This document shows positions 3,556 through 20,147 of a stretch of 20,147 bases of DNA, piece after piece (the stretch's first letter is position 1; each line of letters begins with the position of its first letter). The notes under the pieces are model-generated. The model searched no databases and was not told where the DNA came from. It was given only the letters and a program-made list of their open reading frames with translations. Source of the DNA: a virus; the IMG/VR virus record IMGVR_UViG_3300048804_000015, positions 1 through 20,147 of that record. The stretch is one strand, 5' to 3'. Both the position numbers and the translations under genes were made by a program.

Positions 3556-3566
3556 GGTGAACTAAT

Positions 3567-4175: not shown

Positions 4176-4177
4176 CC

Positions 4178-5317: not shown

Positions 5318-5335
5318 ACACAAAGGAGATATACA

Positions 5336-5765: not shown

Positions 5766-5778
5766 AGAAAGGTTTTAC

Positions 5779-6021: not shown

Positions 6022-6209
6022 GCCAGGTCGTGTATAGCGCCCTGGCCTTAGGAGATGGCGTACCAGACGAACTTGTGCGCTGGCAACTGGCGGAGACATT
6101 CGGATGGCCGCTCGAATATATTGACGGACTGTCTGTCGCCGACCTGAATCAATACATATCCGTTTTGGACGGAAAGGCGCACGCACACACAAGCATAATC
6201 AAGAGGTGA
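6006..6209 (+). CDS. Tail assembly chaperone, second half in the -1 frame
   Basis: The -1 frame relative to the gene above is open from 6006 (just after a TAG at 6003-6005) to TGA 6207-6209. It encodes ...YLSQVVYSALALGDGVPDE, then LVRWQLAETFGWPLEYIDGL and SVADLNQYISVLDGKAHA. The segment T-F-G-W-P-L-E-Y-I-D-G-L-S is what the second halves of tail assembly chaperones show. No ATG or TTG lies at its beginning; a GTG at 6030 has only a poor ribosome site. The geometry (15 bases of overlap at the end of the first frame) fits a programmed -1 shift. No canonical slippery heptamer is present; the best candidate is the C-CCT at 6012-6015, where a proline tRNA could slip from CCT to CCC. Separate initiation at GTG 6030 remains possible. 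Confidence 0.7.
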   Translation, partial: TGPYLSQVVYSALALGDGVPDELVRWQLAETFGWPLEYIDGLSVADLNQYISVLDGKAHAHTSIIKR

Positions 6210-6213
6210 GACC

Positions 6214-8037
6214 ATTAGTACAAAAATCGCGACCTTATGGGCTGAGCTCGGAGTAAAGGACAATCTAACCCCACAACTAAAGAACGCGAAAACGGGGTTG
6301 GCTGGATTCGGGCAAAGCCTACTTGGAGGCGTTGGCGGACTGGTTGGCATTACGTCTGCCGCGGCAGTCGCGGGATTAGCAATCAAGGGATTCAATACAG
6401 CCCTGGCTGCCGCCGCTGAAGCAGAGACGGCGCTTGTTACGATGGGGGCAACAATTCAAAGCATGGGCATCGAGAGCGAAATCAGCGCCGGAAAAGTAGC
6501 CAGACTTGCCGAAGCCCTGATGCCGTTGACCAACTTTGACGATGAAGCTCTGATGAAAGCATCCGAGATATTCATGCGGATGGAATCATTCGATCCGTCC
6601 AATTTAGAGCAGATGTTACAAGCCACCGCGGATTACGCAGCCGGAACGGGTCAGGATATGGCTTCCGCCGCGCAAGCGGTTTCAATGGCGCTAGAGACGG
6701 GGAATACCAGGGCGCTGAAATTCTCGAAGGCTATCCGAGAGCAAATCACCGAAATGGTTACTGCTGGGGATTCCGCCGGTGCATTGGCGCTTATCATGAG
6801 TACGCTAAACGACAAGTTTGGCGGCCAGGCCGTTGCCCAGATGGATACCTATAAGGGCTCGACGGTACAGCTAAAAATAGCTATGGGTGAATTCTGGGAG
6901 AAAGTTGGGGATGGGTTGGAAAAGCAGGGTAAGGATTTCAATGTCTGGCTAACCGACAACGTTGTTGCTTTGACCGGAAGCGTAAAGGCGGCAAATCTTT
7001 ATAGCGCATCCATAGATTATGCTTTCAGGAAAGTTGCCGGAACCGAACTGTCCTGGATAGAAAAAAGTAGTTTCCATTGGGCACTGCATAGCAAGGCTCT
7101 CAATGCGGCAAAAGCAGAATACGAACAATGGGCCGCATACGGCGATAGAGTAAACGCCTGGCTGGATGCACAACCGGAAAAGATAGACGAAAACACTGGG
7201 GCGTTCGTAGACCTTGCCGCTGCTGAAAAGGCCGCTGCCGAGGCCGCCAAGTTGGTATCTCAAGGATATGCTGACCTATATTCTACCGTCGGTACACTGC
7301 AGGGCGTCACAGACAGTTACAACAAAACGCAAGACGATTTGATTGTGAAACAGGGCGACGCGCAAGCCGCAATTGACGCGGCGAAAGGACATTATAGCGA
7401 AGCTGGCGAACACATGCAAGGACTTCGCCAAGACTTGGCGGATGTCAATGCCGAGTTAGCCGCCGCTGCCCTTGCGTTCGAGGATGAAAGCCGCCGCGCT
7501 ATCTTGGTTATGATGGCACAAAAACTTAGCGCGGATGGATGGCAAAAGGGTGAGATGGAAGCGCTTCTGGCGGTGGGTGAGGCGTGGGGAATTTATAGTA
7601 GCGAAGTTATCACGCAAAGCGAAAACATCATGGGCGCATTGGAGAATATTGACACCACTTCTCTGGGCGATTTGCAAGCCTACGCAGAATGGATGATTGC
7701 CAACCCTAATATCACCATGTCGTTTGATTATTTCGAGACGCATCACATCACCAGCATCAGCGATTACATCAGCAAGACCAATCCCTACGCCCCCGGCTCG
7801 CCGGATTGGCGTATCTGGAACCAGGCCAACGGTTACGCGGGCGGCGGATCGTTCGTCGTCCCGTCCGGTTATCCCAACGATTCCTACCCCATGCGGGTGC
7901 AATCCGGGGAGCGCGTTTCGGTGACGCCCGCGGGCGCGAGCGCTTCGGATAATTCAGACATATTGCAAGAACTGCGTGAGTTGCGAACCTATCTTCCGCG
8001 TTCTATCCGGGACGCAGTGCAGCAGGTTGTTCAATGA
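6214..8037 (+). CDS. Tail tape measure protein
   Basis: About 607 residues if started at ATT 6214; the first standard start codon in frame is TTG 6298. The extra N-terminus STKIATLWAELGVKDNLTPQ looks like real tape-measure sequence and AAGAGGTGAG (6201-6210) sits just upstream of the ATT. The body has a Gly/Ala-rich hydrophobic stretch (about 40-75), long Ala-rich helices, a coiled-coil around residues 390-430, and the usual end: GGGSFVVPSGYPNDSYPMRV then QSGERVSVTP and a final helix ELRELRTYLPRSIRDAVQ. It spans the tube lumen and sets tail length; with about 1.5 angstrom per residue a tail near 90 nm would be expected, a short siphovirus tail. No lytic domain is visible. The stop overlaps the next start (ATGA). 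Confidence 0.85.
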   Translation: MSTKIATLWAELGVKDNLTPQLKNAKTGLAGFGQSLLGGVGGLVGITSAAAVAGLAIKGFNTALAAAAEAETALVTMGATIQSMGIESEISAGKVARLAEALMPLTNFDDEALMKASEIFMRMESFDPSNLEQMLQATADYAAGTGQDMASAAQAVSMALETGNTRALKFSKAIREQITEMVTAGDSAGALALIMSTLNDKFGGQAVAQMDTYKGSTVQLKIAMGEFWEKVGDGLEKQGKDFNVWLTDNVVALTGSVKAANLYSASIDYAFRKVAGTELSWIEKSSFHWALHSKALNAAKAEYEQWAAYGDRVNAWLDAQPEKIDENTGAFVDLAAAEKAAAEAAKLVSQGYADLYSTVGTLQGVTDSYNKTQDDLIVKQGDAQAAIDAAKGHYSEAGEHMQGLRQDLADVNAELAAAALAFEDESRRAILVMMAQKLSADGWQKGEMEALLAVGEAWGIYSSEVITQSENIMGALENIDTTSLGDLQAYAEWMIANPNITMSFDYFETHHITSISDYISKTNPYAPGSPDWRIWNQANGYAGGGSFVVPSGYPNDSYPMRVQSGERVSVTPAGASASDNSDILQELRELRTYLPRSIRDAVQQVVQ

Positions 8038-9623
8038 CAGTCTCCGCTACTATCGCGCTCGAAGCCAACTTCGCCGGGACTGCCTGGACGGACATCTATT
8101 CGGACGTGCGTATCTCGAACGGTATCCAGCTTTCACGCGGAAAAACTGGCAATACGCCGTGTGACCGTATCGCCTCTACTGGCGTAATGTCTTTTGCGAT
8201 GGACAACTCCACGCACAATTCCGGCGGGACATTGGGATGGTACAGTCCGGACCATGCAAATGTTCGTTCCGGGTGGGGGCTTGGAATGAAAGCGAGACTG
8301 AAGATCACCTACGATGGCACCCCCTACTATAAATTTCGCGGCAAAATAGATAACATTGCGCCCGCGATGGGGGCGTATCGCGAACGGGACGTAAGCGTTT
8401 CGGTTGTTGATTACATGGACGAATTGGCAAGTCATAAACTTGGGTTGATTCCGGCAAAGTCAAACGTGCGCGGGCAAGAACTGCTCGCCGCGGTAGTAAC
8501 GAATATGCCGAATGCTCCTTTAGCAACGGATTACGATACCGGCGATAACATATATGCACACGGACTTCATAGCGAAAAAGACGAACTCACCACCGGGATG
8601 AACGCCTGCCAGAAGATAGCACAGACCGGGATGGACGATATTTGCGTCACCGGTGACTTGACGGGCGGGGAGACTCTCGTCTACCGCTCCCGGCACGAGC
8701 GCATGAAGATTGCGTCTTCGGCTGCATCGTTCGACGATAGCATGACCGGACTACGGGTACACCGCTCGCGCGACAATCTATTCAATCAATTCAAAGTCAC
8801 CGTACACCCGTCGCAAGAGGATACCTCCCCGGTCATTCTCTATTCTATTCAACGAGAAATCAGTCTGGCCCCCGGTCAAGCTTACACGTTCACGGCGCGC
8901 TATACCGATCCGCTTAGTTCGGGAGCGCGGGTAAGTGCCAGCGGCATGATTGCCCCGGTAATAGATGTTGATTACTGGATGGCCTATGTATCTGAGGAAA
9001 CGGTTACTACATCCTCTCATGCCACAAAAAAGAAGGTTGCGCCCGCCTATGTTATGAGTGCTTCTCTGGGCGTCCAGACCTTTGATGAAACCGGAGTAGC
9101 CGGAACGTTTGGGGCGAATAGTTGCCAGGTGACACTTACCAATAACGGGACGAAACAAGGTTTCGTGACTAGATTCAACCTGCGCGGATACGGGCTGTAT
9201 GAGTACGATCCGGTAGACATAACCGGCGAAGATGGCACAAGTACAACCCTAAACGGCGATCACCCGCTGAATTACGACATGCCCTATCAGCATAACCGGC
9301 ATGTCGGCGAGGACTTCAAAAATTACTTTGTGTCACGCTATTCTACCCCGCGCACGGTCGTTGACTCGATGGAGTTTATCGCCAATGCCAGTGATGCAAT
9401 TATGAAAACTGCGCTCTCGCTGGACGTCGGCAGTCGGATTACATTACGGGAAACGATGACAGGTATCAACACGGATTACTTTGTTGGACATTATTCTTTG
9501 ATTATCGAACCGACTGGGGTTATCCGCTGCGTTCTTGGTGCGCTGGAACCGGTGGACGATACCGTCTGGTTCATAATTGGTTCGTCAGATATAGGCTCAA
9601 CGGACGATCACATTGCCTACTAG
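8034..9623 (+). CDS. Baseplate hub-like minor tail protein
   Basis: A 529-residue protein translationally coupled to the tape measure by ATGA. The N-terminus (ALEANFAGTAWTDIYSDVR... GIQLSRGKTGN, then GKIDNIAPAMGAYRERDVSV, VVDYMDEL) has the strand pattern of the first hub domain found in tail-tip proteins of many siphoviruses, where a short offset-and-region parameter-like beta barrel precedes a G-x-I-x-x-I strand. The centre (about 240-440) is beta-rich and the C-terminus contains DVGSRITLRETMTGINTDYF, VGHYSLIIEPTG, another barrel typical of hub proteins. No peptidase or hydrolase motif is seen. Location after the tape measure fits a distal tail or tail-associated hub protein to which the fibres attach. 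A single large protein may combine roles usually split between Dit and Tal. Confidence 0.65.
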   Translation: MTVSATIALEANFAGTAWTDIYSDVRISNGIQLSRGKTGNTPCDRIASTGVMSFAMDNSTHNSGGTLGWYSPDHANVRSGWGLGMKARLKITYDGTPYYKFRGKIDNIAPAMGAYRERDVSVSVVDYMDELASHKLGLIPAKSNVRGQELLAAVVTNMPNAPLATDYDTGDNIYAHGLHSEKDELTTGMNACQKIAQTGMDDICVTGDLTGGETLVYRSRHERMKIASSAASFDDSMTGLRVHRSRDNLFNQFKVTVHPSQEDTSPVILYSIQREISLAPGQAYTFTARYTDPLSSGARVSASGMIAPVIDVDYWMAYVSEETVTTSSHATKKKVAPAYVMSASLGVQTFDETGVAGTFGANSCQVTLTNNGTKQGFVTRFNLRGYGLYEYDPVDITGEDGTSTTLNGDHPLNYDMPYQHNRHVGEDFKNYFVSRYSTPRTVVDSMEFIANASDAIMKTALSLDVGSRITLRETMTGINTDYFVGHYSLIIEPTGVIRCVLGALEPVDDTVWFIIGSSDIGSTDDHIAY

Positions 9624-9633
9624 GAGATAAATT

Positions 9634-10146
9634 ATGGGTTACACGGCACCGACATATACGAATTGGGATACCGGCGGGCATGTGGTATCTGCCAATATAG
9701 ATACGGACATTCTGGATAATATCGTTTACCTTAAGTCTGCCGCGGATAGTCGCGCGGTTGCGGTAGAGGTATTCGAGGACGATATCCCCCTGTCTACCGG
9801 GACTCTCTTGCGTATTCTGGGCCCTATGCCGTCGTTGATGGCTGGATATAACCTGACCAAAGTCACGGCGACGGTTTTCGCAAAATCCACGTCTGGAACT
9901 CCAACTGTTGAAGTTTTACGGGGCAGGCAAACCACGCCAGGAACGGCGCACGCGTGGTGGGGTATGCTATCTACTCTCGTGACGATAGACGAGAATGAGT
10001 ATTCGAGTTTGGATGCGACTGTTCCGCCCGTTGTTAGCACGTCGTATGACGACATTGCCGAGGGTGATTTGTTAGGAATTAGCGTCACCGTTGCCGGAAC
10101 CGGCGCAACCGGACTGTGGGCTGTAATGGAGTTTGTGAAACCGTGA
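9634..10146 (+). CDS. Minor tail protein, beta-rich
   Basis: A 170-residue protein with a clean ribosome site (AGGAGATAA, 9622-9630). It begins MGYTAPTYTNWDTGGHVVSA, DTDILDNIVYLKS, a start pattern common among tail-tip and fibre-adaptor proteins in which a short helix connects to the baseplate. The remainder alternates strands and ends with GDLLGISVTVAGTGATGLWA, VMEFVKP, a likely jelly-roll or small beta sandwich. A role in receptor binding or as a fibre adaptor is inferred from location. The stop codon overlaps the next start (GTGA). Confidence 0.65.
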   Translation: MGYTAPTYTNWDTGGHVVSANIDTDILDNIVYLKSAADSRAVAVEVFEDDIPLSTGTLLRILGPMPSLMAGYNLTKVTATVFAKSTSGTPTVEVLRGRQTTPGTAHAWWGMLSTLVTIDENEYSSLDATVPPVVSTSYDDIAEGDLLGISVTVAGTGATGLWAVMEFVKP

Positions 10147-10757
10147 GCGGAATAACTCTCGATACCTCTGCGCAACTGGCCGGAAATCAAGCCACTGACT
10201 ACACCCTGGCGCTTAGTCCGGCGGTAGACACGTTTGTGGTTGCGTGGTTTATTGTCTACACCCCTAATACATTACCGTCGAGCGTCAGCATAACTTTCGG
10301 CGGTGTGGCAATGACGGCATTCTCAACTGTAGACGGGACAGACCGGAAGATTTGGGGTTTCTACATTCGAAACGCAGCGGCGGGAGCAAAAAACATTATC
10401 GCGACTCCGGTCGGGGGTATCTATAGTGCCGCGCTGGTTGGGGCGAGTTTCCTACGGGCCGGTTCTGTCGGCACTCCCGTCACGGCAACTGGCGATTCGA
10501 ATAGTGCATCTTCGGACGTTGTGTCGAACGCGGCGAACCTGGTCATGGATTGTTTGAGTTGCGGAGATGGAGCCGCTCTAACTCCCGGCGCAGAGCAGAC
10601 CGTTATCCAGCAAGGTGCTGGTAATGGTTGGGTTGTGTCATACGACAAAGGCGACGGGACAATAACCATGTCGGAATCGTGGTCAACGAATTCAAAGTGG
10701 GCTCATTCGTCTTATGAAGTACGGATGAAATCATCCGGGCAACCTGTCTGGTTTTAG
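10143..10757 (+). CDS. Beta-sandwich minor tail / appendage protein
   Basis: I chose GTG 10143, which overlaps the preceding stop as GTGA and has GGAG at 10128-10131; the frame continues upstream to 10116 only inside the previous gene. The 204-residue product contains VSITFGGVAMTAFSTVDGTD, then KIWGFYIRNAAAGAKNIIAT. This V-x-G-G-V-A-M-T ... Y-x-x-x-N-P/A-A-x-G motif recurs in secreted and phage appendage beta-sandwich modules. The end (MSESWSTNSKWAHSSYEVRM) continues the same fold. Most likely a sugar-binding or decorative tail-tip protein. No catalytic motif is seen. Confidence 0.62.
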   Translation: MSGITLDTSAQLAGNQATDYTLALSPAVDTFVVAWFIVYTPNTLPSSVSITFGGVAMTAFSTVDGTDRKIWGFYIRNAAAGAKNIIATPVGGIYSAALVGASFLRAGSVGTPVTATGDSNSASSDVVSNAANLVMDCLSCGDGAALTPGAEQTVIQQGAGNGWVVSYDKGDGTITMSESWSTNSKWAHSSYEVRMKSSGQPVWF

Positions 10758-10760
10758 AAA

Positions 10761-13700
10761 ATGAAAATTGAAGAACTCGCAAAACAACTTCTTCCCTACC
10801 TCAATGGAACAATTTCTGTTACTGGCGCGCCAGTCAGCGGCTATGCTCCGTCTCCACATACGCTGGATAGCAACCACCATACCGGGATAATCACCGACGC
10901 GCAGCACGGCGTTCGCACGCTCGTCAACGCGCACGCACATAGCGCATTGAGCGGGGTGACGGCTAGCCAGCATCACGTCCAAACAAGCATTACCGCCGGG
11001 AATGGTTTGACCGGCGGAGGAGCAGGGGCTGGGGTGACTCTCGCGGTCGGCGTGTCGGGACTTGGTTTGTCCGTTGGTGCAGACGCGGTAGTGCTCGCGT
11101 CGTCTAGTAACCCTGGCGCGGCGGCGTCCATTCTCGCGTCTGACGCAAGTGGATATTTACAACTAACGCGGCTTGGTCTTGGCGTTTCGCCCGATTATCC
11201 ATTACACGTGGTGGGCGCGTCTCGGATGGATGGCGATCTGACATTCGTGGGCGCGCAGTCTATACTTACCACCTCCGATAACCTGACGCTTGCTCCAGCG
11301 GCAGACTTGGTACTTACCCCCGGCGGAACGGCTCGTGTTATGGCCTCTTCAGGAGTGCGGTTGCAGTCTGACAATTACGCCTCGCAGACGACCGGCTGGG
11401 GCATCAGCTATGCAGGCAGCGGCGACTTCCGCTATCTCTATGCAGACGAACTTCACGCGAGGTCGTTTATCACAGACCTTGAACAAGCCTTAGCCGGTGG
11501 ACAGATTATCTGTAAATCGGTCGCACCATTAGCGTCAGTGTTTACCGTTCCCGCCGCCGATGGATGGTTCACAACCATGTGGGTTGAGAGTTTCAAGGGA
11601 TTTGAGAACGCCCATGTATTTGCAGATGGTGACATAGTCAGGCTTCGACAATTCAATAGAAGTCGGGGGGCTGTAAATTTACTGTCAAATCCGAGCTTCG
11701 AAACGAATCTTATCGGGTGGAGTGCTGTAACTCTCCTTCCGGGAACAACGTGGGTGAGGGACGAGAATACCGCCTACCAGAGCCAATGTTCTGGAAAGGG
11801 AACATTTGATGGCGCGCACGCCGTTGAGGGCGTTCAGACTTCCATAGCCGTCACGAGCGGAGTAACCTATACAGCATCCCTTTACATAAAGATATCGAGC
11901 GTATCCGATATACAAATGGACGTTGTTGCTCCGGGCGGGGAAAGTGGGAATATCGCGATTAATGGCACGGCAGATTGGACGCGTTATTCGTGGTCTTTCA
12001 CTTCCAGTGCTGACGGTACGGCTAATCTTCGGGTATTCTCAGACCAAACGGCAACCGGTACATTCTGGATTGACAACGCACAGGTCGAGGTGAGCGCTAC
12101 TGTCACCGACTATTGCGATGGTTCTTTGGATATAGCAAACTGCTGGGGTAGGGTATATTGGCAAGAGACAGATACAACGACCAAGTTCCAGCGTTATTCG
12201 TTTCAACGCTGGTCCGCTGGGGGGGAAGGTGCTGCAATAGCCGGGTCAGCCGTTGGCATAGGTACTTTGGCGTTGGATTATGGTACTGGTGCTGGCGGGT
12301 TTTTGGAAAGCAACGCCATTGACGGAGTGAATGGAGAATACGCTCCTTATCATCAGGTAGTAACCTGGACGACGACCCCCGCCTATGGATCCATAGTCCG
12401 CACCCGCCTGGGCAATCTCAAAGGTATTTTCAATGTCGCTAACGAATACGGACTCTATGCGGGCGCTGGAATACTGGACGCTTCTCTTTATCTGCGCATC
12501 AGCGACCAGGCCGCAGAACTGCATAATATTTCCCTCAAGATGTTTGACGGGGCTGTCAATACGGTACTTATCAGCCCGACCGCCCCCTCGTTTGCGATGG
12601 GCAGCACTCTACCGACTGCCTACGGAACCGGGACGGGTATCTGGATGGGCAAGGACACGGCTTATAAGTTCCGCGTGGGCGACCCTGCTGGCACTCGTTT
12701 GCAATGGACGGGCACGGCGTTGGAAATTTACGACGCTAAATTTACCATGTCCGGAGCGTCTTCTGCAATTGCGATCGGTACCACCCCACCAACTTCGGCG
12801 AGCGCGGGTACGGGCATCTGGATTGACCGGACGGGCATGTATGGCCTTGCCGCGAATGTCGTACAGGCGAAATTCGACGCGGCGACCGGCGCAATCACGG
12901 CGGGGGCGGGGAATACGATATTAAATTCTTCTGGTGTATTTATAAAGACAACTACAGATTTTACCTGGACAAATATAAATGCTTATAATTTTATTAGGCC
13001 CGATAATACTCTCGTGGGAAGATTGTATGCTACTTATTATGCCGCTACAGGTGAACAACAAGTAGGCATAGATGTTCCTGCAACGTCTGGAACGATTAGT
13101 CAGCTTGTTTTACAGGCTAACTCCCCAACCACTAAACAAGCATGGGTTTCATTAGGCGCTAAGTCTGGCAGTACGGCTATACAAATAACCGGCGTTGTTG
13201 ATGACGATACGGGAACTCCATATTGGCAAATAGACGGAGCTAGCCTTACTATATATGAACACGGTCTCAACGTCGGCTCCGCCACAGGAGCGGGGCCGGG
13301 GTGCATATCTGTTTCTGGCGTGGCCGCTTTGACTACCCCAGCTGAGTCATGGGTGGGGCCATCCGCTACGGCTATACATTTCCAGGGTGGTTTAATTAGT
13401 ATCGGGACGATTACCGCTTATGCTAATGCCAGTCTTACACTACTTGGTGGTGGGGCAGGGGGCGTAACTGTAGCATTTAGCAACGCGGCAGTTGCACTGC
13501 CGGGCGGGTTATCCCTAAAAACCGGATATGGTGTCGGTTATTTAGCCTGTCAAAATGCCGCCGGTAATGCCGGGGCGCCGCTGTACTCGCAGAGCATGAA
13601 TTTATTTTATAGTCGCGCTGCCGGAGTGGTGCATTTTGACGATCCGTCTGACGCTACCTTGAAGAAGAATATAAAATCATTGCCATCTGGTGCGTTGTCC

Positions 13701-13964
13701 AAAATAAATGCCTTGAAGCCCAGAATGTATCAGATGCGGGCGGGCGCAAATCATCACCGCAAAGATGATCACACCAGACAACTTACTGGCTGGATAGCTG
13801 ATGAGTTTGAGCAGGTTTTTCCGGACGCGGTTAGTCACGACGATGTAGGTAATTTCAAATCTCTGAACACATCTTGTATCCACGAATGGACTGTTGCTGC
13901 CATTCAGGAACTGTCTGCAAAAGTGGACGTGTTGGAAGCAAGAGCGAAATCAAAGGTTAGTTAA
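10761..13964 (+). CDS. Large tail fibre / receptor-binding protein with S74 chaperone
   Basis: 1067 residues. Residues about 30-75 are histidine-rich (HTLDSNHHTG, AHAHSALSGVTASQHHVQ), as in trimeric fibre shafts whose His pairs can bind a metal ion. Residues about 120-300 are short fibre repeats. Residues about 305-463 form a carbohydrate-binding-module-like beta sandwich beginning NLLSNPSFETNLIGWS and closing GTFWIDNAQVEV. Two related units follow at about 610 and 668 (GTGTGIWMG and AGTGIWIDR). The C-terminus is an intramolecular chaperone of the peptidase S74 type: SDATLKKNI with Ser963 and Lys968 spaced by five like the known Ser-Lys dyad, so the last 105 residues should be cut off after trimer folding. 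It ends in a coiled coil. Base composition shifts sharply inside the gene (see findings), a sign of module exchange. Confidence 0.87.
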   Translation: MKIEELAKQLLPYLNGTISVTGAPVSGYAPSPHTLDSNHHTGIITDAQHGVRTLVNAHAHSALSGVTASQHHVQTSITAGNGLTGGGAGAGVTLAVGVSGLGLSVGADAVVLASSSNPGAAASILASDASGYLQLTRLGLGVSPDYPLHVVGASRMDGDLTFVGAQSILTTSDNLTLAPAADLVLTPGGTARVMASSGVRLQSDNYASQTTGWGISYAGSGDFRYLYADELHARSFITDLEQALAGGQIICKSVAPLASVFTVPAADGWFTTMWVESFKGFENAHVFADGDIVRLRQFNRSRGAVNLLSNPSFETNLIGWSAVTLLPGTTWVRDENTAYQSQCSGKGTFDGAHAVEGVQTSIAVTSGVTYTASLYIKISSVSDIQMDVVAPGGESGNIAINGTADWTRYSWSFTSSADGTANLRVFSDQTATGTFWIDNAQVEVSATVTDYCDGSLDIANCWGRVYWQETDTTTKFQRYSFQRWSAGGEGAAIAGSAVGIGTLALDYGTGAGGFLESNAIDGVNGEYAPYHQVVTWTTTPAYGSIVRTRLGNLKGIFNVANEYGLYAGAGILDASLYLRISDQAAELHNISLKMFDGAVNTVLISPTAPSFAMGSTLPTAYGTGTGIWMGKDTAYKFRVGDPAGTRLQWTGTALEIYDAKFTMSGASSAIAIGTTPPTSASAGTGIWIDRTGMYGLAANVVQAKFDAATGAITAGAGNTILNSSGVFIKTTTDFTWTNINAYNFIRPDNTLVGRLYATYYAATGEQQVGIDVPATSGTISQLVLQANSPTTKQAWVSLGAKSGSTAIQITGVVDDDTGTPYWQIDGASLTIYEHGLNVGSATGAGPGCISVSGVAALTTPAESWVGPSATAIHFQGGLISIGTITAYANASLTLLGGGAGGVTVAFSNAAVALPGGLSLKTGYGVGYLACQNAAGNAGAPLYSQSMNLFYSRAAGVVHFDDPSDATLKKNIKSLPSGALSKINALKPRMYQMRAGANHHRKDDHTRQLTGWIADEFEQVFPDAVSHDDVGNFKSLNTSCIHEWTVAAIQELSAKVDVLEARAKSKVS

Positions 13965-13966
13965 CA

Positions 13967-13990
13967 ACTGGCGTCTGGAATTGCCAATTA
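13967..13990. repeat. Intergenic motif copy A
   Basis: AACTGGCGTCTGG followed by AATTGCCAATT immediately behind the fibre gene. It shares AAC(C/T)GGCGT and ATTGCCAATT, with nearly identical spacing, with the copy at 16517-16539. The arms AACTGGC and GCCAATT pair except for one mismatch. Confidence 0.5.
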
Positions 13991-14155
13991 TAGAAACCCA
14001 CCCTGCGGGAAGATGCGATGCATGTGATCAATGCCAATAAGATGGCCGCGGTGGTTTCGTTTGTTTTTAATTAATGGATCTGGAATTATGAAACATACAA
14101 GAGCCGCTCAGGGAGAGTGGATTTTGTTCTGGAAGATGATGGGGTGGGTGAAGAT

Positions 14156-14200
14156 TTGCCTATAGAGAGGTGCCCCCAAGGGGCACGAACCTATAGGCAA
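14156..14200. repeat. Long imperfect palindrome (17-bp stem hairpin)
   Basis: TTGCCTATAG (14156-14165) pairs with CTATAGGCAA (14191-14200); inside, after a 4x4 internal loop, GTGCCCC (14170-14176) pairs with GGGGCAC (14180-14186) around CAA. Both arms are perfect. Such hairpins occur at ends of some mobile elements and behind bacterial genes as repetitive palindromes. No T-tract follows on either strand. Confidence 0.75.
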
Positions 14201-14205
14201 ATTAT

Positions 14206-14227
14206 CCCCCTTCCCGGCTGAAGGGGG
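14206..14227. repeat. Second hairpin, 8-bp stem
   Basis: CCCCCTTC (14206-14213) pairs with GAAGGGGG (14220-14227) around CCGGCT, five bases after the larger hairpin. Read leftward it lies directly behind the recombinase-like remnant. Confidence 0.65.
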
Positions 14228-14254
14228 AATTTCAAAAGGGGGCGAGGCGGATGG

Positions 14255-14421
14255 TATGGGGGTGAAATAGGTAATGGCGCCAACAATCTGTCCGGCATCT
14301 TTTTTGACAACGATCTTATGGATGAACCCCTGAAGCATCTGGCGCACCTGGTCGGCAGGAGCATGGGTGAGGGTCTCGACCAGAGTTTGCGAGAGACGGA
14401 GGAGGTCGGCCTGGGCCAGGG
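14255..14421 (-). pseudogene. Fragment resembling the C-terminus of a serine recombinase
   Basis: On the minus strand a frame (open 14521 to 14108) contains SLAQADLLRLSQTLVETLTH, then APADQVRQMLQGFIHKIVVK and KDAGQIVGAITYF. A leucine-rich helical part followed by L-x-x-F-I-x-K-I-V-V-x-x-D is how the C-termini of large serine recombinases end (coiled coil, then a short strand pair). The catalytic and zinc-ribbon domains are absent and there is no start codon or ribosome site suited to it. After this part the frame runs into the two hairpins, giving low-complexity Pro/Gly residues. I read it as a leftover of a mobile element. The match is by pattern only and could be accidental in an antisense frame, but the plus strand here makes no sensible fibre sequence. 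Confidence 0.42.
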
Positions 14422-14972
14422 AGGGGACCGGGGAAGTGAACCTTTCCCCTGCAGCCGATAATCGGGGCATAACAATCTTAAATTTGACGCAATCCCCGGT
14501 CCTTCGTCTAAACACCGCCAACGCTTACGCCGGTGCTAGAAATTGGGCCATTGGAACCAATCAGTATGACTTTGGCGATCTTGTTATTTGGCAATCCCAG
14601 GCAAAAGGCGGGGATGCTTCTGGCAGTTCCACCGGTACACCTAGATTGTATATCAATCCTTCTGGAAACCTTGTCATCGGTGGCACGTCTGCTCAGGCTG
14701 GCTACGAACTAACGGTCTATAACGATGTCTATGTAGTAGGAGACGTTGGTTGTGCAACCGTCACTGATCATACTCCCTTCCCAAAAGACAAACAAGAGGC
14801 TTATGCCGCCGTATTGTCGTTGACCGGGAAGAAGGGGAAGGTAGAGCACGACAAACTACATCCGTTTATTGCAAGTCGGGGCGGGAGAAATTTATCAGCT
14901 CTTGTCTCAGCGCAGAACGAAATTATCAAAGACCTGATGACTCGAATTAATGCCCTGGAGAATATACAATAG
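14367..14972 (+). CDS. Orphan tail fibre C-terminal part (second fibre tip)
   Basis: The first 22 codons of this frame are antisense to the recombinase-like remnant and look random. From about 14436 the product is fibre-like: SPAADNRGITILNLTQSPVL, RLNTANAYAGARNWAIGTNQ, PRLYINPSGNLVIGGTSAQA, then YNDVYVVGDVGCATVTDHTP. It ends in a fibre-end domain with LSLTGKKGKVEHDKLHPF and a coiled coil (IIKDLMTRINALENI), not the S74 type of the large fibre. GTG 14436 has GAGGGGA nine bases upstream and would give 178 residues, so a truncated but expressed protein is possible. The missing N-terminal attachment part says that this is the 3' end of a former fibre gene, or an alternative tip. Its ending domain may act as another kind of chaperone or trimerisation unit. 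Confidence 0.7.
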   Translation: MRVSTRVCERRRRSAWAREGTGEVNLSPAADNRGITILNLTQSPVLRLNTANAYAGARNWAIGTNQYDFGDLVIWQSQAKGGDASGSSTGTPRLYINPSGNLVIGGTSAQAGYELTVYNDVYVVGDVGCATVTDHTPFPKDKQEAYAAVLSLTGKKGKVEHDKLHPFIASRGGRNLSALVSAQNEIIKDLMTRINALENIQ

Positions 14973-14988
14973 AGTATAATTAGTCCAC

Positions 14989-15017
14989 AACCGGCGTGAG
15001 CCGAAGGCGAAAGCATA
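14989..15017. repeat. Intergenic motif copy C (AACCGGCGTGA)
   Basis: AACCGGCGTGA at 14989-14999 recurs at 16517-16527 and, with changes, at 13967-13974. In this copy CGGC-GTGA-GCCG can form a small hairpin closed by a GNRA-type loop. It lies between the orphan fibre tip and the next gene, with TATAAT at 14975-14980 just upstream but no matching -35. Confidence 0.5.
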
Positions 15018-15034
15018 GTAGAAATGGATACGAA

Positions 15035-15256
15035 ATGGCAAAAGGTAAGAACTTTAGTCCAGAAAGTAAAATCCCGCAACCGAAATCGAACAAGGAATTG
15101 TGCGTGGAAGAAATCAATACCATCCTACATAAACACAATTGCCGCTTAGTCACGGTGCCGGTAGGTGCAATCTCGGAAGGCGGGCAGTTTGAATACCGAT
15201 CCGCTGAAATTCGCATCGAAGAAAATCCACCCCGGCCAGAACCGCCGAAGGAATAA
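15035..15256 (+). CDS. Small conserved-looking protein of unknown function
   Basis: 73 residues from ATG 15035; an in-frame GTG at 14996 lies inside the intergenic motif and is a less likely start. The sequence is basic at the start (AKGKNFSPESKIPQPKSNKE), has a central part LCVEEINTILHKHNCRLVTV with alternating hydrophobics that reads as helix then strand (helix-strand-strand), and ends in a proline/glutamate tail (IEENPPRPEPPKE). No membrane segment. It is followed one base later by the endolysin gene, so it is co-translated with it. It may be a small regulator or accessory protein of late phage operons; the family is not recognised. Confidence 0.6.
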   Translation: MAKGKNFSPESKIPQPKSNKELCVEEINTILHKHNCRLVTVPVGAISEGGQFEYRSAEIRIEENPPRPEPPKE

Positions 15257-15257
15257 T

Positions 15258-16235
15258 GTGAAAATATCCGGGCCGCTCGTTGTTGATGTTTCGCTTTACG
15301 ACCACCACCTGAACATCCAGGAACTTTTGGACGGGGGTGTAGTCTCGGTTATTCTTGGCCTGTATCGTCAATGGAAAAGCGGTGTGGCCACATTACACGA
15401 CAACTGCAAGCGCATCATTGACCAGATTTCCCCAAGTCCGCTAATCCTGCAAACCTACAAATATTACTATCCGCAGGAAGATCCCATCAAAGATGCGGAC
15501 TGGTTCGTTGACACCATGAAGGAATACCCGGTAAAATTTGCGTGGGCAGACCTGGAAGAACACGGAAGTGTAATGTCCCAGAAACTCCGCTCGGAGCAAA
15601 ACCGCCGATTTACAGCGCAACTCTATTCTCGCTTTACAAATGTGGGGGTCTATACCAGAAAATCATACGTGGAAGAATATGCCCCCGAAATGGACTTGTG
15701 GCTAGGCAAATATCCCACCTGGGTTGCACACTACGGACGTGGCCCGATGAAGAACGGGAAACAAGACGTGCAGAATATATCCTGGAAGGAGTTGAAAGCC
15801 AACTGGCTTCCCGACTATCCTGTTCTGGTTCCGAGCGGAGCAAAGAAATTTGTCGGTCACCAGTTTACCGGAAGTAATCCCGATATAGGATTCTTTCGTC
15901 TTCCGGGTGTATACAATCAATATGCTCCATTCTGGCCCAACGGTGGGAGAATGGCGCTTGATATATCGGTATTCACGCCGCAGTTCATAGACTCAATAGG
16001 AAATGCCTCTAATCAGCCCCCCACGCCACTACAAGATCCGCAGCCTACCCCAAGCGCTGATTATGTCGTAGTTCCAGCCGCCATAAATGTGCGCAGTGGG
16101 CCTGCTTCGACATACAAGCTGATTGGTATTGCCAAATGTGGCGATATTCTGCAAGTTACACCGGTTCGAGAGAATGGATACGCAAAACTAACCAATGATA
16201 CGTGGGTCTACGCAGCCTATCTCAAAATCAAGTAA
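15258..16235 (+). CDS. Endolysin: GH25 lysozyme with C-terminal SH3b domain
   Basis: I chose GTG 15258, one base after the preceding stop and with AAGGA at 15249-15253; the frame is open upstream but only through the previous gene. The 325-residue product cuts peptidoglycan between N-acetylmuramic acid and N-acetylglucosamine. Residues 8-15 VVDVSLYD carry Asp10, and WADLEEH (96-102) gives the Asp98-x-Glu100 pair; both match the catalytic acids of GH25 lysozymes. LGKYPTWVAHY, KKFVGHQFTGS and ALDISVF are further GH25 barrel strands. A Pro-rich linker (about 252-266, PPTPLQDPQPTPSAD) leads to an SH3b wall-binding domain with AAINVRSGPASTYKLIG. No signal peptide, so export needs a holin. Two small membrane proteins follow directly. 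Confidence 0.93.
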   Translation: MKISGPLVVDVSLYDHHLNIQELLDGGVVSVILGLYRQWKSGVATLHDNCKRIIDQISPSPLILQTYKYYYPQEDPIKDADWFVDTMKEYPVKFAWADLEEHGSVMSQKLRSEQNRRFTAQLYSRFTNVGVYTRKSYVEEYAPEMDLWLGKYPTWVAHYGRGPMKNGKQDVQNISWKELKANWLPDYPVLVPSGAKKFVGHQFTGSNPDIGFFRLPGVYNQYAPFWPNGGRMALDISVFTPQFIDSIGNASNQPPTPLQDPQPTPSADYVVVPAAINVRSGPASTYKLIGIAKCGDILQVTPVRENGYAKLTNDTWVYAAYLKIK

Positions 16236-16244
16236 GAGGTGAAC

Positions 16245-16505
16245 ATGAACGACACAGCCACTAACTCAATTTCCATCATCAAGCAATATTTAGAGCAGGG
16301 GAAGAAAATTCCCGTCGGACTGAAGGACGATTTGCTTTTTGGCGCATTGTTGAATATTTACGAAGTGCAAGAATGTCAGGGACGGTCTATTTCTGGAATG
16401 CGACCCTGGGTTGGGTTGGTCAGGTGGGGCGCAACTATCCTCGGAGCGGCAATTATATTGCTGCTTTTGTCAATGCTTACGCACACGTTCACTTGGCCGT
16501 TTTAG
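16245..16505 (+). CDS. Small membrane protein with one C-terminal helix (lysis-associated)
   Basis: 86 residues from ATG 16245, with AGAGGTGA at 16234-16241; GTG 16239 two codons earlier is possible but lies inside the ribosome site. The N-terminal 50 residues are soluble and charged (SIIKQYLEQGKKIPVGLKDD), then WVGLVRWGATILGAAIILLL forms one membrane helix before the end HTFTWPF. A soluble N-terminal domain with a C-terminal anchor resembles hemolysin-XhlA-like and other accessory lysis proteins. Its place between endolysin and the three-helix holin candidate supports a lysis function (anti-holin, or second holin component). Confidence 0.68.
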   Translation: MNDTATNSISIIKQYLEQGKKIPVGLKDDLLFGALLNIYEVQECQGRSISGMRPWVGLVRWGATILGAAIILLLLSMLTHTFTWPF

Positions 16506-16516
16506 TGGTAAAATTC

Positions 16517-16540
16517 AACCGGCGTGAAGATTGCCAATTC
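16517..16540. repeat. Intergenic motif copy B
   Basis: AACCGGCGTGAAG then ATTGCCAATTC, in the 105-base gap between the two membrane-protein genes. It shares both halves with copy A and the first half with copy C. TAAAAT at 16509-16514 precedes it, echoing the TATAAT upstream of copy C. Confidence 0.5.
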
Positions 16541-16610
16541 CCCGAAAGCGGAGCTTAGGGTAAACATGGACGGCACGTCAATTCTCCCACCTACCAGAAA
16601 GGAATGAAAC

Positions 16611-16889
16611 ATGGATAATCCAATTCTCACCGTTGCGTTCATCGTCATGATTACCAGCTTCTTCAAAAAGCAACTGGCACTCACCGGATGGAAGGTGCTG
16701 CTCGCGGCTTTCGTCGTTGCTCTGGTCGTCGGACTGGTCCCGGTTGCTATCGCGGCATTCCCGACCATTGCTTCCTGGCTAGCGGCCATCCTGAATGTAA
16801 TCGTTTTATTCTTGACGGCTGCCGGGTCAATGGACTTTATTATTGCCGTGAGAACAACCACGAAGCCACCCGAACCCGGAATAAAATAA
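16611..16889 (+). CDS. Holin-like protein with three membrane segments
   Basis: 92 residues, ribosome site AAAGGAA (16599-16605). Hydrophobic segments are ILTVAFIVMITSFF (about 5-18), VLLAAFVVALVVGLVPVAIA (about 29-48) and TIASWLAAILNVIVLFLTAA (about 52-71), with lysines at the first loop (KKQLALTGWK) and a short charged tail. Such a size and topology fit phage holins, which open the membrane to let the endolysin out. The endolysin and another membrane protein lie directly upstream. A terminator follows at 16927-16956, closing the structural-lysis transcript. Confidence 0.78.
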   Translation: MDNPILTVAFIVMITSFFKKQLALTGWKVLLAAFVVALVVGLVPVAIAAFPTIASWLAAILNVIVLFLTAAGSMDFIIAVRTTTKPPEPGIK

Positions 16890-16926
16890 TCTGAAACACT
16901 ACCGGAAGTCACAATTGAACGGATAC

Positions 16927-16956
16927 GACCCTGGCGTTCTGCCAGGGTCTCTTTTT
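16927..16956 (+). terminator. Rho-independent terminator behind the lysis genes
   Basis: GACCCTGGC (16927-16935) and GCCAGGGTC (16941-16949) form a perfect nine-pair stem with a GTTCT loop, followed by TCTTTTT. The next ribosome site (GAGGAGG, 16957-16963) starts right behind the T-run. Confidence 0.88.
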
Positions 16957-16967
16957 GAGGAGGCACC

Positions 16968-17786
16968 TTGTCAACCATCACAGCAATTGTTACAGACACG
17001 CATATAGGAAGTTACACCGCTCTATCCTTGCACGAGTGGAATTGCGATACCGGCTTGGTTAACACGGACGGAACCCCCATCTATCACAAGTATCAAGCAA
17101 CCATAGCACAAGACTGGATTTACGATTGCTGGCTTGATTTTTGGGGGTATGTAAAGAAATTGGCCGGGAAAAAACATCGGATCGTTGTAAAACATTTGGG
17201 GGATGTGATAGATGGATTTCACCCAAGATATATTCAAGCAATTCCAAACGTGGGCGACCAAAAGGGAATGGCGATTGAATTGCTCAAGCCTATCGTAAAT
17301 ATGGCCGACTCGTTTTACATCATCCGGGGTACAGAGTGCCACGTAGGAGAGGCTGGTCAGGACGAAATGGAGATTGCCAGAGAGCTGGGCGTTCCGTGTA
17401 TTTGGGAAGGAATATTCGACATCGATGGATTGATTATTGACTGTGCTCATCACGGACGAGCTAGTAAGCGCGCGTGGACTTCTTCATCGGCAGGAATAGC
17501 GGCTGAGGCGATACACGATGCTGTAACAGATAGGCCCCCAAGAATTCCGCCGCGGTATGTCTTTCGTGGACACATGCACTTGATAGACGATAGTGGAGAG
17601 AAAGTTTCTGGCACGCGGGCATTGAGTCTTCCGTCGTGGGAACTAAAGAATGGATTAGGCCATCGTCTTGAGTCGGGTAAACGTGCCGACATTGGAGGGC
17701 TTATAATTTTGCCAAACGGGGAACTTGATCTATCCCACCTGCGCTATTTCGCCGCCCCTGGACAGAGAAAGGTTACTAAAATATGA
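16968..17786 (+). CDS. Calcineurin-like metallophosphoesterase
   Basis: 272 residues, starting at TTG 16968 four bases behind GAGGAGG; no ATG lies nearby. All metal-binding motifs of the family are there in order: Asp10-x-His12 (VTDTHIG), Gly-Asp79-x-x-Asp82 (HLGDVIDG), a changed Gly-Asn-His-Glu block as RGTECH (120-125), CAHHG (159-163) and Gly-His202-x-His204 (RGHMHL). The GNH(E/D) motif being GTECH is unusual: the asparagine seems replaced and the histidine (125) moved by an inserted residue. Such enzymes hydrolyse phosphomono- or diesters with two metal ions; phage versions may act on nucleic acid or nucleotides. The gene lies behind the lysis terminator and overlaps the next gene by ATGA. 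Substrate unknown. Confidence 0.85.
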   Translation: MSTITAIVTDTHIGSYTALSLHEWNCDTGLVNTDGTPIYHKYQATIAQDWIYDCWLDFWGYVKKLAGKKHRIVVKHLGDVIDGFHPRYIQAIPNVGDQKGMAIELLKPIVNMADSFYIIRGTECHVGEAGQDEMEIARELGVPCIWEGIFDIDGLIIDCAHHGRASKRAWTSSSAGIAAEAIHDAVTDRPPRIPPRYVFRGHMHLIDDSGEKVSGTRALSLPSWELKNGLGHRLESGKRADIGGLIILPNGELDLSHLRYFAAPGQRKVTKI

Positions 17787-18088
17787 GCAACCCAATAAAC
17801 GATGCTTTGACAAATGGTATAGCGAGACAAACCACCGAAGACGATTTGACTAAAGCTCTTTACGATACCGCTTTACTCGACCGCGCCGTGTGCGAATCAA
17901 CTAAATCCATCCCGCCCATGCGCCCCGCTGGATACGGAATTCTCGCGTCCGAACTGGCAGCGGCGAAGTCATGTGGAGAATCGTCGGCCCGTAAGTGGCT
18001 GAAACAGAACGGGTGGAAAAGCCAGACAATGCGCTATCCGTCCGAGACGGGCAAGATGGTGCATGGGCAGGTTTTTACGCCAGAATAA
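17783..18088 (+). CDS. Small helix-turn-helix-like protein
   Basis: 101 residues starting in the ATGA overlap with the phosphoesterase gene. The first half (NDALTNGIARQTTEDDLTKA) is helical; residues about 51-72 (LASELAAAKSCGESSARKWL) read as a helix-turn-helix: an L-A-x-E-L first helix, a turn and a S-A-x-K-W-L recognition helix, followed by NGWKSQTMRYPSETGKMVHG, a likely wing. This suggests a winged-helix DNA-binding protein or the DNA-binding part of a packaging or regulatory protein. It is the last rightward gene. I do not recognise a named family. Confidence 0.62.
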   Translation: MSNPINDALTNGIARQTTEDDLTKALYDTALLDRAVCESTKSIPPMRPAGYGILASELAAAKSCGESSARKWLKQNGWKSQTMRYPSETGKMVHGQVFTPE

Positions 18089-18107
18089 ACCGTATCACAA
18101 ACGCTAT

Positions 18108-18139
18108 ACAAAAGCACAGGCCCCGTTGAGGTCGGGGCC
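18108..18139 (-). terminator. Terminator for the leftward genes
   Basis: GGCCCCG (18119-18125) and CGGGGCC (18133-18139) form a seven-pair stem around TTGAGGT. Read on the minus strand it is followed by TGTGCTTTTGT, a moderate T-tract; on the plus strand no T-run follows. It therefore ends leftward transcription, between two converging gene blocks. Confidence 0.65.
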
Positions 18140-18202
18140 CGGCTGGCGATATGCTCATACCTCCAGTTTAGTTTGGGAGGAGGCGGTTTCGCCTTCGGTG
18201 TG

Positions 18203-18211
18203 ATTATAGCA
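18203..18211 (-). promoter_or_regulatory. Possible extended -10 promoter facing left
   Basis: On the minus strand TGcTATAAT (18211 to 18203) is a perfect extended -10 element; no good -35 is seen. A transcript from here would run about 90 bases to the hairpin at 18119-18139. Alone it is weak evidence. Confidence 0.3.
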
Positions 18212-18233
18212 CAGTTCCCCGCTTCCGAAAAGT

Positions 18234-18482
18234 TTAGCGGCTGTGCGAGACATTCCCGCCACACGTTTTACATTCGTAATCCTTGTCCCCAAACTCTGAT
18301 TTTCCGCACCTACAAGCGCCCAATGTTGCGCGCGGAGGGTTGAGCAGCTTCACCAACATCTCAACCGGCACTTCTACATGGTAATTACCGTTGCGGTTTG
18401 CTTTGTACCGGATTTCCACAGTCTTCCCGTCGTCCGATACGCTTATGTCGTCTGCGTCTATTACTTCATACTGTTCGATCAT
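18234..18482 (-). CDS. Small zinc-ribbon-like protein
   Basis: 82 residues, its ATG overlapping the stop of the upstream gene by ATGA. The first 50 residues form strands and a helix (YEVIDADDISVSDDGKTVEI, then NGNYHVEVPVEMLVKLL). The C-terminus has two cysteine pairs, C-R-C-G and C-K-T-C-G-G (ACRCGKSEFG, YECKTCGGN), spaced like a small zinc ribbon. Such phage proteins often touch nucleic acids or host RNA polymerase, but nothing specific can be claimed. It is the last gene of the leftward block, ending 95 bases before the terminator hairpin. Confidence 0.68.
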   Translation of the reverse strand: MIEQYEVIDADDISVSDDGKTVEIRYKANRNGNYHVEVPVEMLVKLLNPPRATLGACRCGKSEFGDKDYECKTCGGNVSHSR

Positions 18483-18724
18483 AGTTGCATCTCCTCGGCT
18501 ACAAATCTTTCCCGGATCGTGTACTCTTTATCTCCGATTCGGTACACCGTTCCCGCCTCGTACAAATGCTTTGTGAGTCGCCATTCTTCCTTCCCCATGC
18601 TATCAAATCCCGCCATTGTTGGCTGCCGTATCCAGACCTGTTTGGTATTTCGGTAGCATTTGGTTATGTCGTAACCACGAGAGGGCAATGGCTTCTTGCT
18701 TCTGTGGGGTCTACGGGTTGTCAT
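18479..18724 (-). CDS. Small basic protein of unknown function
   Basis: 81 residues from the ATG at 18724, which lies inside the end of the upstream gene (14 bases overlap). The frame stays open to 18793 but that part only mirrors the upstream gene. The N-terminus is strongly basic (TTRRPHRSKKPLPSRGYD), the middle has QVWIRQPTMAGFDSMGKEEW, and the end is a strand-helix part (GTVYRIGDKEYTIRERFVAE). The ribosome site is poor, so translation probably depends on coupling. No known family. Confidence 0.58.
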   Translation of the reverse strand: MTTRRPHRSKKPLPSRGYDITKCYRNTKQVWIRQPTMAGFDSMGKEEWRLTKHLYEAGTVYRIGDKEYTIRERFVAEEMQL

Positions 18725-18902
18725 GAGAATTATTTCTGGCAAGAACAAACCAGTCCATGTCAAACCATTTTGGTTCTTTCCAAATTCCAACAACGCGAAC
18801 CATAAAACCCGTAGCGCAATGGTCTCGTCTTATTTTATCAACAATAACAATTTGGCCCTTTTTCATTTTATAATTGTAGTCTTTGCGAACCTTTAGCTCC
18901 AT
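18711..18902 (-). CDS. Small SH3-like barrel protein of unknown function
   Basis: 63 residues; on the minus strand GAGAGGATGA precedes the ATG at 18902. The core KKGQIVIVDKIRRDHCATGF, MVRVVGIWKEPKWFD is a run of short strands like a small SH3-type barrel (K-K-G-x-x-V-x-V ... V-R-V-V-x). Its C-terminus overlaps the start of the next gene. It belongs to the leftward operon. Function unknown. Confidence 0.6.
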   Translation of the reverse strand: MELKVRKDYNYKMKKGQIVIVDKIRRDHCATGFMVRVVGIWKEPKWFDMDWFVLARNNSHDNP

Positions 18903-18925
18903 GGATTCATCCTCTCTCTAATTCT

Positions 18926-19366
18926 CTATGCAATATATTCTGCATACTTGCCCGTGGAATATCTATCACCGTTTTCTTGCAGGTCTTGGGTGTGTTTGCC
19001 CAATCGTTTCCGTGCTGCCAGTGCCGCGATTGCGTTGACCAGAGACCCCGGCCTCCATACCGTAAAAGGGGCAAGTCCATTGTGCTTTACCAGGTATTTG
19101 TCGAATTCTTCCCGGTATTCTTTGAGCAGATCATCTATCCTGAATTCGCTTGCGGCGATATTGAGTTCTCGCAAAGAGACCAGCCAATCAGTTCCGCGTC
19201 CCTTCTTCTTCCCGCGTGCAAACGGTGGCGGCTCAAATCCCCATAGTTGACAAAATGCGGTCAGGGCGGGCCAGACATCCTCGGGATAGTTGCTGATGTC
19301 GTAACGATTCACCCCTACCTCAATAAGTGCTTTGCGAATTGGTGTATTGGGTATGCCTTGTTTCAT
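18926..19366 (-). CDS. Leftward-operon protein, possibly replication-related
   Basis: 146 residues with an excellent minus-strand ribosome site (AAAGGAAATGAGGA) before ATG 19366. N-terminal residues TPIRKALIEVGVNRYDISNY, then EDVWPALTAFCQLWGFEPPP resemble short helices of a winged-helix-like part; a basic loop (ARGKKKGRGTDWL) follows; then helices SLRELNIAASEFRIDDLLKE and finally FTVWRPGSLVNAIAALAARK. The W-x-x-x-x-x-x-x-x-x-G-F ... T-V-x-x-P-G-S-L-V-N-A-I pattern reminds me of small replication-initiation or helicase-loader-like proteins of phages, but this is a loose likeness and I give no symbol. The gap of 58 bases upstream holds an inverted repeat that may be an operator. Confidence 0.62.
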   Translation of the reverse strand: MKQGIPNTPIRKALIEVGVNRYDISNYPEDVWPALTAFCQLWGFEPPPFARGKKKGRGTDWLVSLRELNIAASEFRIDDLLKEYREEFDKYLVKHNGLAPFTVWRPGSLVNAIAALAARKRLGKHTQDLQENGDRYSTGKYAEYIA

Positions 19367-19387
19367 TCCTCATTTCCTTTCGTGTGT

Positions 19388-19416
19388 CCGTTTCGCGTCT
19401 AAACTTTATGAAACGG
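19388..19416. promoter_or_regulatory. Inverted repeat in the leftward operon gap
   Basis: CCGTTTC (19388-19394) and GAAACGG (19410-19416) are perfect arms separated by 15 bases, and a smaller GTTT/AAAC pair lies inside. It fills the only sizeable gap (19367-19424) of the leftward block, just before the ribosome site of the 146-residue gene. It may be a protein-binding site or an mRNA hairpin. Confidence 0.45.
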
Positions 19417-19424
19417 GGAGGGCG

Positions 19425-19730
19425 TTACTCGTTATCGGCGTAGCACAGGTCCGGAATATCCCGTTCATGTGGCTCCACGGCCTTAGTCCACACACATTCT
19501 GCGAGCCAGGTGGCGGCGGAATGATTGTCGCCAATCTTGCCCCAGTTGTTATATTCTTCAAGCATTCCTCGCGCTTTGTCCAGGGCGACGCGAAGTTGGA
19601 CAATGGTTGCGCGAAGTTGGACAAATTCGGCGGCGACGTCTCGCAATATATCGGCTTGATTGTGTCGCCCCTCCTTGTCCAGGGATACAGCGGCTTTCTC
19701 CAAGACGTTCGCATAATTTATTTCGCTCAT
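19425..19730 (-). CDS. Coiled-coil small protein, paralogue of its upstream neighbour
   Basis: 101 residues from ATG 19730, preceded on the minus strand by AAGAGGAAAA; the frame is open further up only through the neighbour. The centre is a coiled coil with a repeated heptad (VQLRATI, VQLRVAL), made by a 21-base near-duplication. Then LDKARGMLEEYNNWGKIGDN, WLAECVWTKAVE follow, which align with LDKARNLIGYIVKYYDETVD, LWLVAAIAWVQK of the next gene to the right. Start and end share an ATGA overlap with that neighbour. Role unknown; gene duplication within an early operon is the likely origin. Confidence 0.62.
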   Translation of the reverse strand: MSEINYANVLEKAAVSLDKEGRHNQADILRDVAAEFVQLRATIVQLRVALDKARGMLEEYNNWGKIGDNHSAATWLAECVWTKAVEPHERDIPDLCYADNE

Positions 19731-19755
19731 TTTTCCTCTTCTTTCTGCACCCAGG
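19725..19755. repeat. 31-base junction repeat, copy 1
   Basis: This 31-base stretch matches 27 of 31 positions of 19973-20003. Each copy contains, on the minus strand, the last codons of one small gene (QKEEEK in both), the ribosome site and the ATGAGC start of the following gene. Confidence 0.7.
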
Positions 19756-19978
19756 CTATGGCAGCGACCAACCATAGGTAGTAGTCAACCGTTTCGTCGT
19801 AATACTTTACGATATAACCAATCAAGTTCCGCGCTTTGTCCAAATCGGCGCGCAGTTTCGCCAGTTCGTCCACCCGTTCAGTGTATCCGCAATCGCAATA
19901 CTTCAAATCGTCCGTACACATGAGACGACAGGTACACATTTCGTCGTGGCGCTTTACAAACTCATCAAGGTTGCTCAT
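19727..19978 (-). CDS. Coiled-coil small protein with cysteine cluster
   Basis: 83 residues from ATG 19978, in ATGA overlap with the partial gene to its right and ending in ATGA overlap with the gene to its left. Residues about 14-31 carry a cysteine cluster (CTCRLMCTDDLKYCDCGY, C-x-C-x3-C then C-x-C) that may bind zinc. A coiled coil (VDELAKLRADLDKARNLIGY) and a hydrophobic Trp-rich segment (YYLWLVAAIAWVQ) follow, ending KEEEK. The last residues are the same as those of its right-hand neighbour because the coding 3' end also holds the ribosome site for the next gene. Function unknown. Confidence 0.62.
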   Translation of the reverse strand: MSNLDEFVKRHDEMCTCRLMCTDDLKYCDCGYTERVDELAKLRADLDKARNLIGYIVKYYDETVDYYLWLVAAIAWVQKEEEK

Positions 19979-20003
19979 TTTTCTTCTTCCTTCTGGGCCC
20001 AGG
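19973..20003. repeat. 31-base junction repeat, copy 2
   Basis: Partner of 19725-19755, exactly 248 bases away. Differences are at the ribosome site (GAAGAA against GAAGAGG) and two bases in the Trp-Ala/Val codons. Confidence 0.7.
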
Positions 20004-20147
20004 CGCGTTGCCTGTTTGTTAGCCAATAAACGACCAGGCACCCATTCTTTTCGCCGTGTTCTCTGGCGGCCCGCTTCGTGGTTATGCCATAGGCCGGGAT
20101 CAGGTTGGGCAAGTCTGGTTTCTTCGTGACGGTCTCGACGCGGACGG
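19975..20147 (-). CDS. C-terminal part of a third small leftward gene (partial)
   Basis: The minus strand is open from the window edge (reading phase: first full codon at 20145) to TGA 19977-19975, giving about 56 residues: VRVETVTKKPDLPNLIPAYG, ITTKRAAREHGEKNGCLVVY, WLTNRQRAWAQKEEEK. The final WLxxxxxAWxQKEEEK corresponds to LWLVAAIAWVQKEEEK of the next gene, so the two share a common end. The stop overlaps the next start as ATGA. A competing frame on the same strand stays open but gives an Arg-rich product without sense. Function unknown; the N-terminus lies outside. Confidence 0.62.
   Translation of the reverse strand, partial: VRVETVTKKPDLPNLIPAYGITTKRAAREHGEKNGCLVVYWLTNRQRAWAQKEEEK

Follow-up and report, generated by a model that had tools for sequence, protein, structure and literature searches.

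The fibre locus of this uncultivated phage carries a complete tail fibre gene that is followed, across an unusually wide gap, by an orphan C-terminal piece from a fibre of another kind. The best reading of this arrangement, and the most economical account of it, is a mosaic locus in which the orphan piece is a young relic or else a working small gene. We assign a probability of roughly one half to the more specific proposal that this piece, here called the tip, once formed the 3′ end of a fibre gene, either an older or a second one, and stayed behind after fibre exchange or after truncation of that second gene. The window, which is the whole stretch of DNA that was analysed, is the entire IMG/VR record IMGVR_UViG_3300048804_000015 (20,147 bp, linear class, probably a fragment). 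In order, it carries the major capsid gene, the connector, tape-measure, and tail genes, the large fibre, the tip frame, a GH25 endolysin, and small genes.

The large fibre and the orphan tip

The large tail fibre gene occupies positions 10761-13964 on the + strand and encodes a complete protein of 1067 aa. Pfam matches above the cut-off reveal a CBM_4_9 carbohydrate-binding module (aa 306-427) and, at the C-terminus, an S74 intramolecular chaperone domain (aa 963-1024, E 1.5e-12). PHROG tail-fibre families also match its C-terminus. The earlier note, made from the sequence alone, likewise described a complete fibre gene here; this gene has not been cut. Just 3′ of the fibre, a short + frame (13994-14074) ends in LREDAMHVINANKMAAVVSFVFN at its stop codon and has a weakly positive codon score. 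This frame could be a further gene remnant.

The tip is encoded on the + strand at 14436-14972, and the next gene in the same orientation is the endolysin. Translation from a GTG codon would yield 178 aa, comprising one fibre bead, which resembles fibre beads found in L003, L004, and L005, and an end domain of ∼85 aa with a predicted final helix. The GTG at 14436 is preceded by CCAGGGAGGGGACC, and a Shine–Dalgarno-like purine stretch (14417-14424, + strand) containing GGAGG is located ∼11 nt before it. When cumulative codon evidence is evaluated by maximum likelihood, the coding signal of the + frame begins at 14424, and thus the sharp switch near 14422-14436 that had been noticed earlier is confirmed. 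The frame remains open to 14972 and is free of stop codons and frameshifts, and its codon usage is native (0.23 bits/codon versus a gene mean of 0.17). With an uninterrupted frame and codon usage that exceeds the average for real genes, the tip has not begun to decay. This codon usage, together with a GTG that has a ribosome-binding box, supports the previous suggestion that the tip need not be dead.

At 178 aa, the tip has no N-terminal attachment region of the type found in complete tail fibres. Its start lies near a bead boundary and is not an ATG, and no alternative ATG occurs before the last 20 codons. The tip and the large fibre have no stretch of DNA or protein in common. Moreover, no sequence relationship links the tip end domain to the large fibre's S74 end (hhalign probability 5%), as expected from the earlier claim that the two ends differ. 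A structure prediction for the tip was unusable (pLDDT 40).

Two other viruses carry the same end domain, and both have it at the end of a long fibre. The tip is 63% identical, across the final 101 aa, to the C-terminus of the 519-aa fibre of L114 (IMGVR_UViG_3300037483_000101, fibre 4648-6207), and 52% identical to that of the fibre of L116 (IMGVR_UViG_3300035099_000024, fibre 2-1567), which is at least 521 aa. It also conforms to the signature of the L114 and L116 end domains, TDxTPxPxxxxxAYxxxLSLxGKxGxVxHxKLxxFI...RNLSALxSAQNExIKDL. This conserved domain (GRNLSALVSAQNEVIKDL) corresponds to no Pfam family. Of the three members that were aligned, one also has a match at 2e-4 to a tail-fibre family in PHROGs. 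The L114 fibre has about 340 more residues upstream than the tip does. Whereas the shared domain closes a long fibre in L114 and L116, in the window it stands alone. The term orphan tip is appropriate because at least 340 N-terminal residues of L114/L116-type fibres are missing; judged by sequence, the tip is a fibre of its kind minus the front two thirds. The earlier note, which described a fibre C-terminus lacking an attachment part, is likewise supported on this point, since L114 and L116 bear this end domain solely on the ends of long fibres.

The gap, its hairpins, and the antisense frame

The large fibre and the tip are separated by a gap of 471 bp (13965-14435). No other gap in the + strand operon is as large: most of its genes abut or overlap, and the next-biggest gaps are 276 and 105 bp. 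The gap matches none of the phage and plasmid records searched, and a comparison with Rfam yielded nothing at the gathering threshold and a single chance match at E 0.3.

A strong imperfect hairpin is present within the gap at 14153-14205, where two stems (TTTGCCTATAG and GTGCCCC) flank a 4×4 internal loop. This hairpin provides the lowest-energy 60-nt fold of the entire window (fold at 14151), with RNA z-scores of -7.9 (+ strand) and -5.1 (- strand). A second hairpin at 14206-14232 (CCCCCTTC/GAAGGGGG) is stable, yet no more so than its base composition predicts (z-scores of +0.3 and -0.5 relative to shuffled sequences). Of the two strong hairpins that the earlier note placed behind the fibre, then, the first is exceptional and the second is not. 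The hairpin at 14153-14205 is unlikely to be a classic terminator, since the stem is not followed by a T-run on either strand, and we rejected its interpretation as an intrinsic terminator for this reason. A search for the same motif in the other loci compared revealed no second occurrence. At 16921-16960, a hairpin with a T-run behind it (CCCTGGCGTTCTGCCAGGGTCTCTTTTT) is a more typical terminator than the hairpin at 14153-14205.

An antisense open frame of 137 aa is located at 14108-14521 on the - strand. It may not be a gene. Frames of this length are ordinary in the window, given that antisense ORFs of 152, 148, 147, and 147 aa occur elsewhere. The codon score of the frame is 0.05 bits/codon under a local-composition null, compared with a real-gene mean of 0.17. 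This value falls inside the ordinary antisense range, whose 95th percentile is 0.08-0.10 in the two better-scoring classes and 0.10 in the nearest class.

The frame had originally been read as the C-terminus of a serine recombinase, and the fibre gene was proposed to have been cut by a mobile element. According to this explanation, a serine-recombinase element inserted in or beside the fibre gene, and the 3′ end of its recombinase along with the hairpins remain on the minus strand. The end of the minus frame (FIxKIVV...IVGAITYF) does loosely recall serine-recombinase C-termini, the frame abuts the tip exactly, and among nine plasmid recombinases the tail of a TndX-like one gives the best local alignment (E 0.33). 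However, the resemblance is not specific because a CBS domain, which we rejected as a chance match, scores equally weakly (E 0.16). The frame has no match in Pfam, NCBIfam, PHROGs, or PDB sequences, whereas a real plasmid recombinase used as a positive control reaches DUF4368 at 4e-20 in the same search. Targeted profile searches with PF07508 and PF14287 also were negative, whereas the positive control L120 matches PF07508, PF00239, PF14287, and PF13408. Plasmids and phages searched by tblastn gave nothing significant. No relative emerged when 11.3 million genome contigs and IMG/VR were scanned for exact peptides, and a degenerate codon motif for the frame end gave 0 matches in 257 Gb of genomes, although distant relatives could escape scans that use exact peptides or one motif of fixed spacing. 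This motif, which approximates F-[IV]-x-[KR]-[IV]-x-[IV]-x6-[IV]-x-G-x-[IV]-x-Y-[FY]-x-P, does match the window itself. A single-sequence fold of the frame consists of three helices (pLDDT 61), and a Foldseek comparison of this model with the PDB produced no significant match.

On these sequence comparisons, a recombinase identity for the antisense frame is unsupported. Within the limits of the searches, this absence of similarity is the first of two outcomes that the earlier note had itself named as counting against its proposal, the other being related phages with a normal separate gene. Because the frame cannot be identified as a recombinase, interruption of the fibre gene by a mobile element is not supported, and we consider this explanation very unlikely. 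The frame may nevertheless derive from a fast-evolving recombinase family that is absent from the collections searched.

Relatives of the window and the origin of the tip

Close kin are limited to the left half of the window: L086 is 99.99% identical over 1-7002 and L094 is 99.6% identical over 703-10799. Two further relatives (L087 and L088) have about 76%–83% DNA identity to the window, and three others (G006, G007, and G008) have about 56% identity in the capsid protein. None of these reaches across 10800-20147, and the tip and the large fibre are missing from all of them. Two glycosyltransferase genes (GT group 1 and GT34-like) reside within the virion module at 1514-3357, after the capsid gene and before the connector gene. 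G003 carries both (87% and 97% at the amino acid level), and the first is also found in G006, G007, and G008 (43%–48%). Among the kin of the window's virion genes (L086-L094 and G003-G008), none spans the fibre/tip locus, and none has the tip. Likewise, no relative was found that has the full-length parent gene or that is free of the insert. Because no relative spans the locus, we infer the exchange event and have not observed its history. The L094 contig, which comes from another sample, breaks off 38 bp inside the fibre gene at window position 10799. Assemblies often break at variable fibre genes, and this break suggests population variation at the fibre.

If the locus is a mosaic, then the working fibre would be the complete S74-ended gene at 10761-13964, and the tip frame at 14436-14972 would have formed the 3′ part of a fibre gene, older or second, that belonged to a different family. 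Cut at a bead-domain boundary, the tip would have stayed in place through exchange of the fibre gene or truncation of the second gene. The 471 bp with the hairpin would be a scar or filler between the two. This scheme presumes that a longer parent gene once resided here, that its front part was removed by exchange between phages, and that the tip is a relic whose frame may still be open because the event was recent. Several observations are consistent with a relic, including the confinement of this end domain to long fibres in L114 and L116, the start near a bead boundary with neither an ATG nor an attachment region, the biggest operon gap directly upstream, the L094 break at the fibre, and an end domain unlike S74. 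Counted against a relic are the lack of decay in the tip frame, the failure to find a relative with the full-length parent gene or free of the insert, and the GTG with its GGAGG box exactly at the coding boundary, as for a working gene.

The tip could instead be a working small gene, with the hairpin in its 5′ leader, whose 178-aa product, translated from the GTG at 14436, would be held by another virion protein and serve as a second fibre tip or as an accessory protein of the tail. The open frame, the native codon usage, and the coding start at a GTG with a GGAGG box all fit this explanation, as does the fact that the tip holds one whole bead plus the end domain. However, no relative has a separate gene of this type, both relatives with the same end have long fibres, and the tip combines the lack of an attachment part with a non-ATG start that no earlier ATG could replace. 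We therefore regard a working gene as a possible but secondary explanation. A further reading, in which the tip would be translated on its own as a functional fibre-end protein that joins the large fibre or is located elsewhere on the virion, such that the phage has two receptor-binding ends and the hairpin controls expression of the tip, is improbable.

The contig might also be an assembly artefact that fuses two genomes or populations within 13965-14435. In keeping with this concern, no independent contig covers 10799-20147, and the near-identical L094 stops at the start of the fibre. Nevertheless, the codon usage of the tip fits that of the phage genes and the endolysin follows in the same orientation, making an artefact highly improbable. 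The earlier note additionally raised the prospect of an alternative receptor-binding tip that is stored downstream and could be swapped by recombination. On this proposal, inversion or recombination would bring the tip onto the large fibre, in the manner of invertible fibre cassettes. A single attachment part is indeed followed by two different, adjacent fibre ends, but they have the same orientation. Inverted or shared repeats that flank or link them are absent beyond chance short matches, and they offer no common DNA or protein stretch for homologous exchange. A PF07508 search of the window and a scan of its ORFs recognised no invertase or recombinase. Neither the inverted crossover repeats nor the recombinase gene of an invertible or shuffling cassette was found in the window, although such a gene could lie farther away because the window is a fragment. 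Programmed swapping would have no visible substrate because no repeats join the large fibre and the tip. A programmed switch is unlikely, and the stored-tip proposal, which these findings do not bear out, is the least probable of the explanations considered.

Comparison with known fibre systems

Under the mosaic reading, this region exemplifies a fibre locus that seems to have been captured after an exchange, and it exposes a little-described fibre end domain that is common to unrelated phages. Production of the tip as a protein in its own right, which is at present only possible, would be a compact way to carry two receptor-binding ends.

Among invertible fibre cassettes, the invertases of Mu and P1 are Gin and Cin. 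Known fibre switches combine an invertase with flanking conserved blocks, as with Ein in carotovoricin (PMC13195805). The window resembles such cassettes in having more than one fibre end beside one fibre gene. In contrast to them, it has no recognised invertase or crossover repeats, and its tip is oriented as the fibre is. A different comparison can be made with S74 (endosialidase-type) ends, one of which forms the C-terminus of the large fibre. The tip end domain has no sequence relation to S74, but it occupies the same position in its own family and is also helix-ended.

Recombination maintains mosaic tail-fibre loci in the carotovoricin fibre loci of Pectobacterium (PMC13195805). The window differs from these in having one known arrangement, with no donor or recipient found and no demonstrable flanking homology. 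As in the carotovoricin loci, however, conserved neighbours accompany fibre C-terminal parts that are exchanged or rearranged (PMC13195805). The locus looks like a product of the ordinary mix-and-match evolution of phage fibres.
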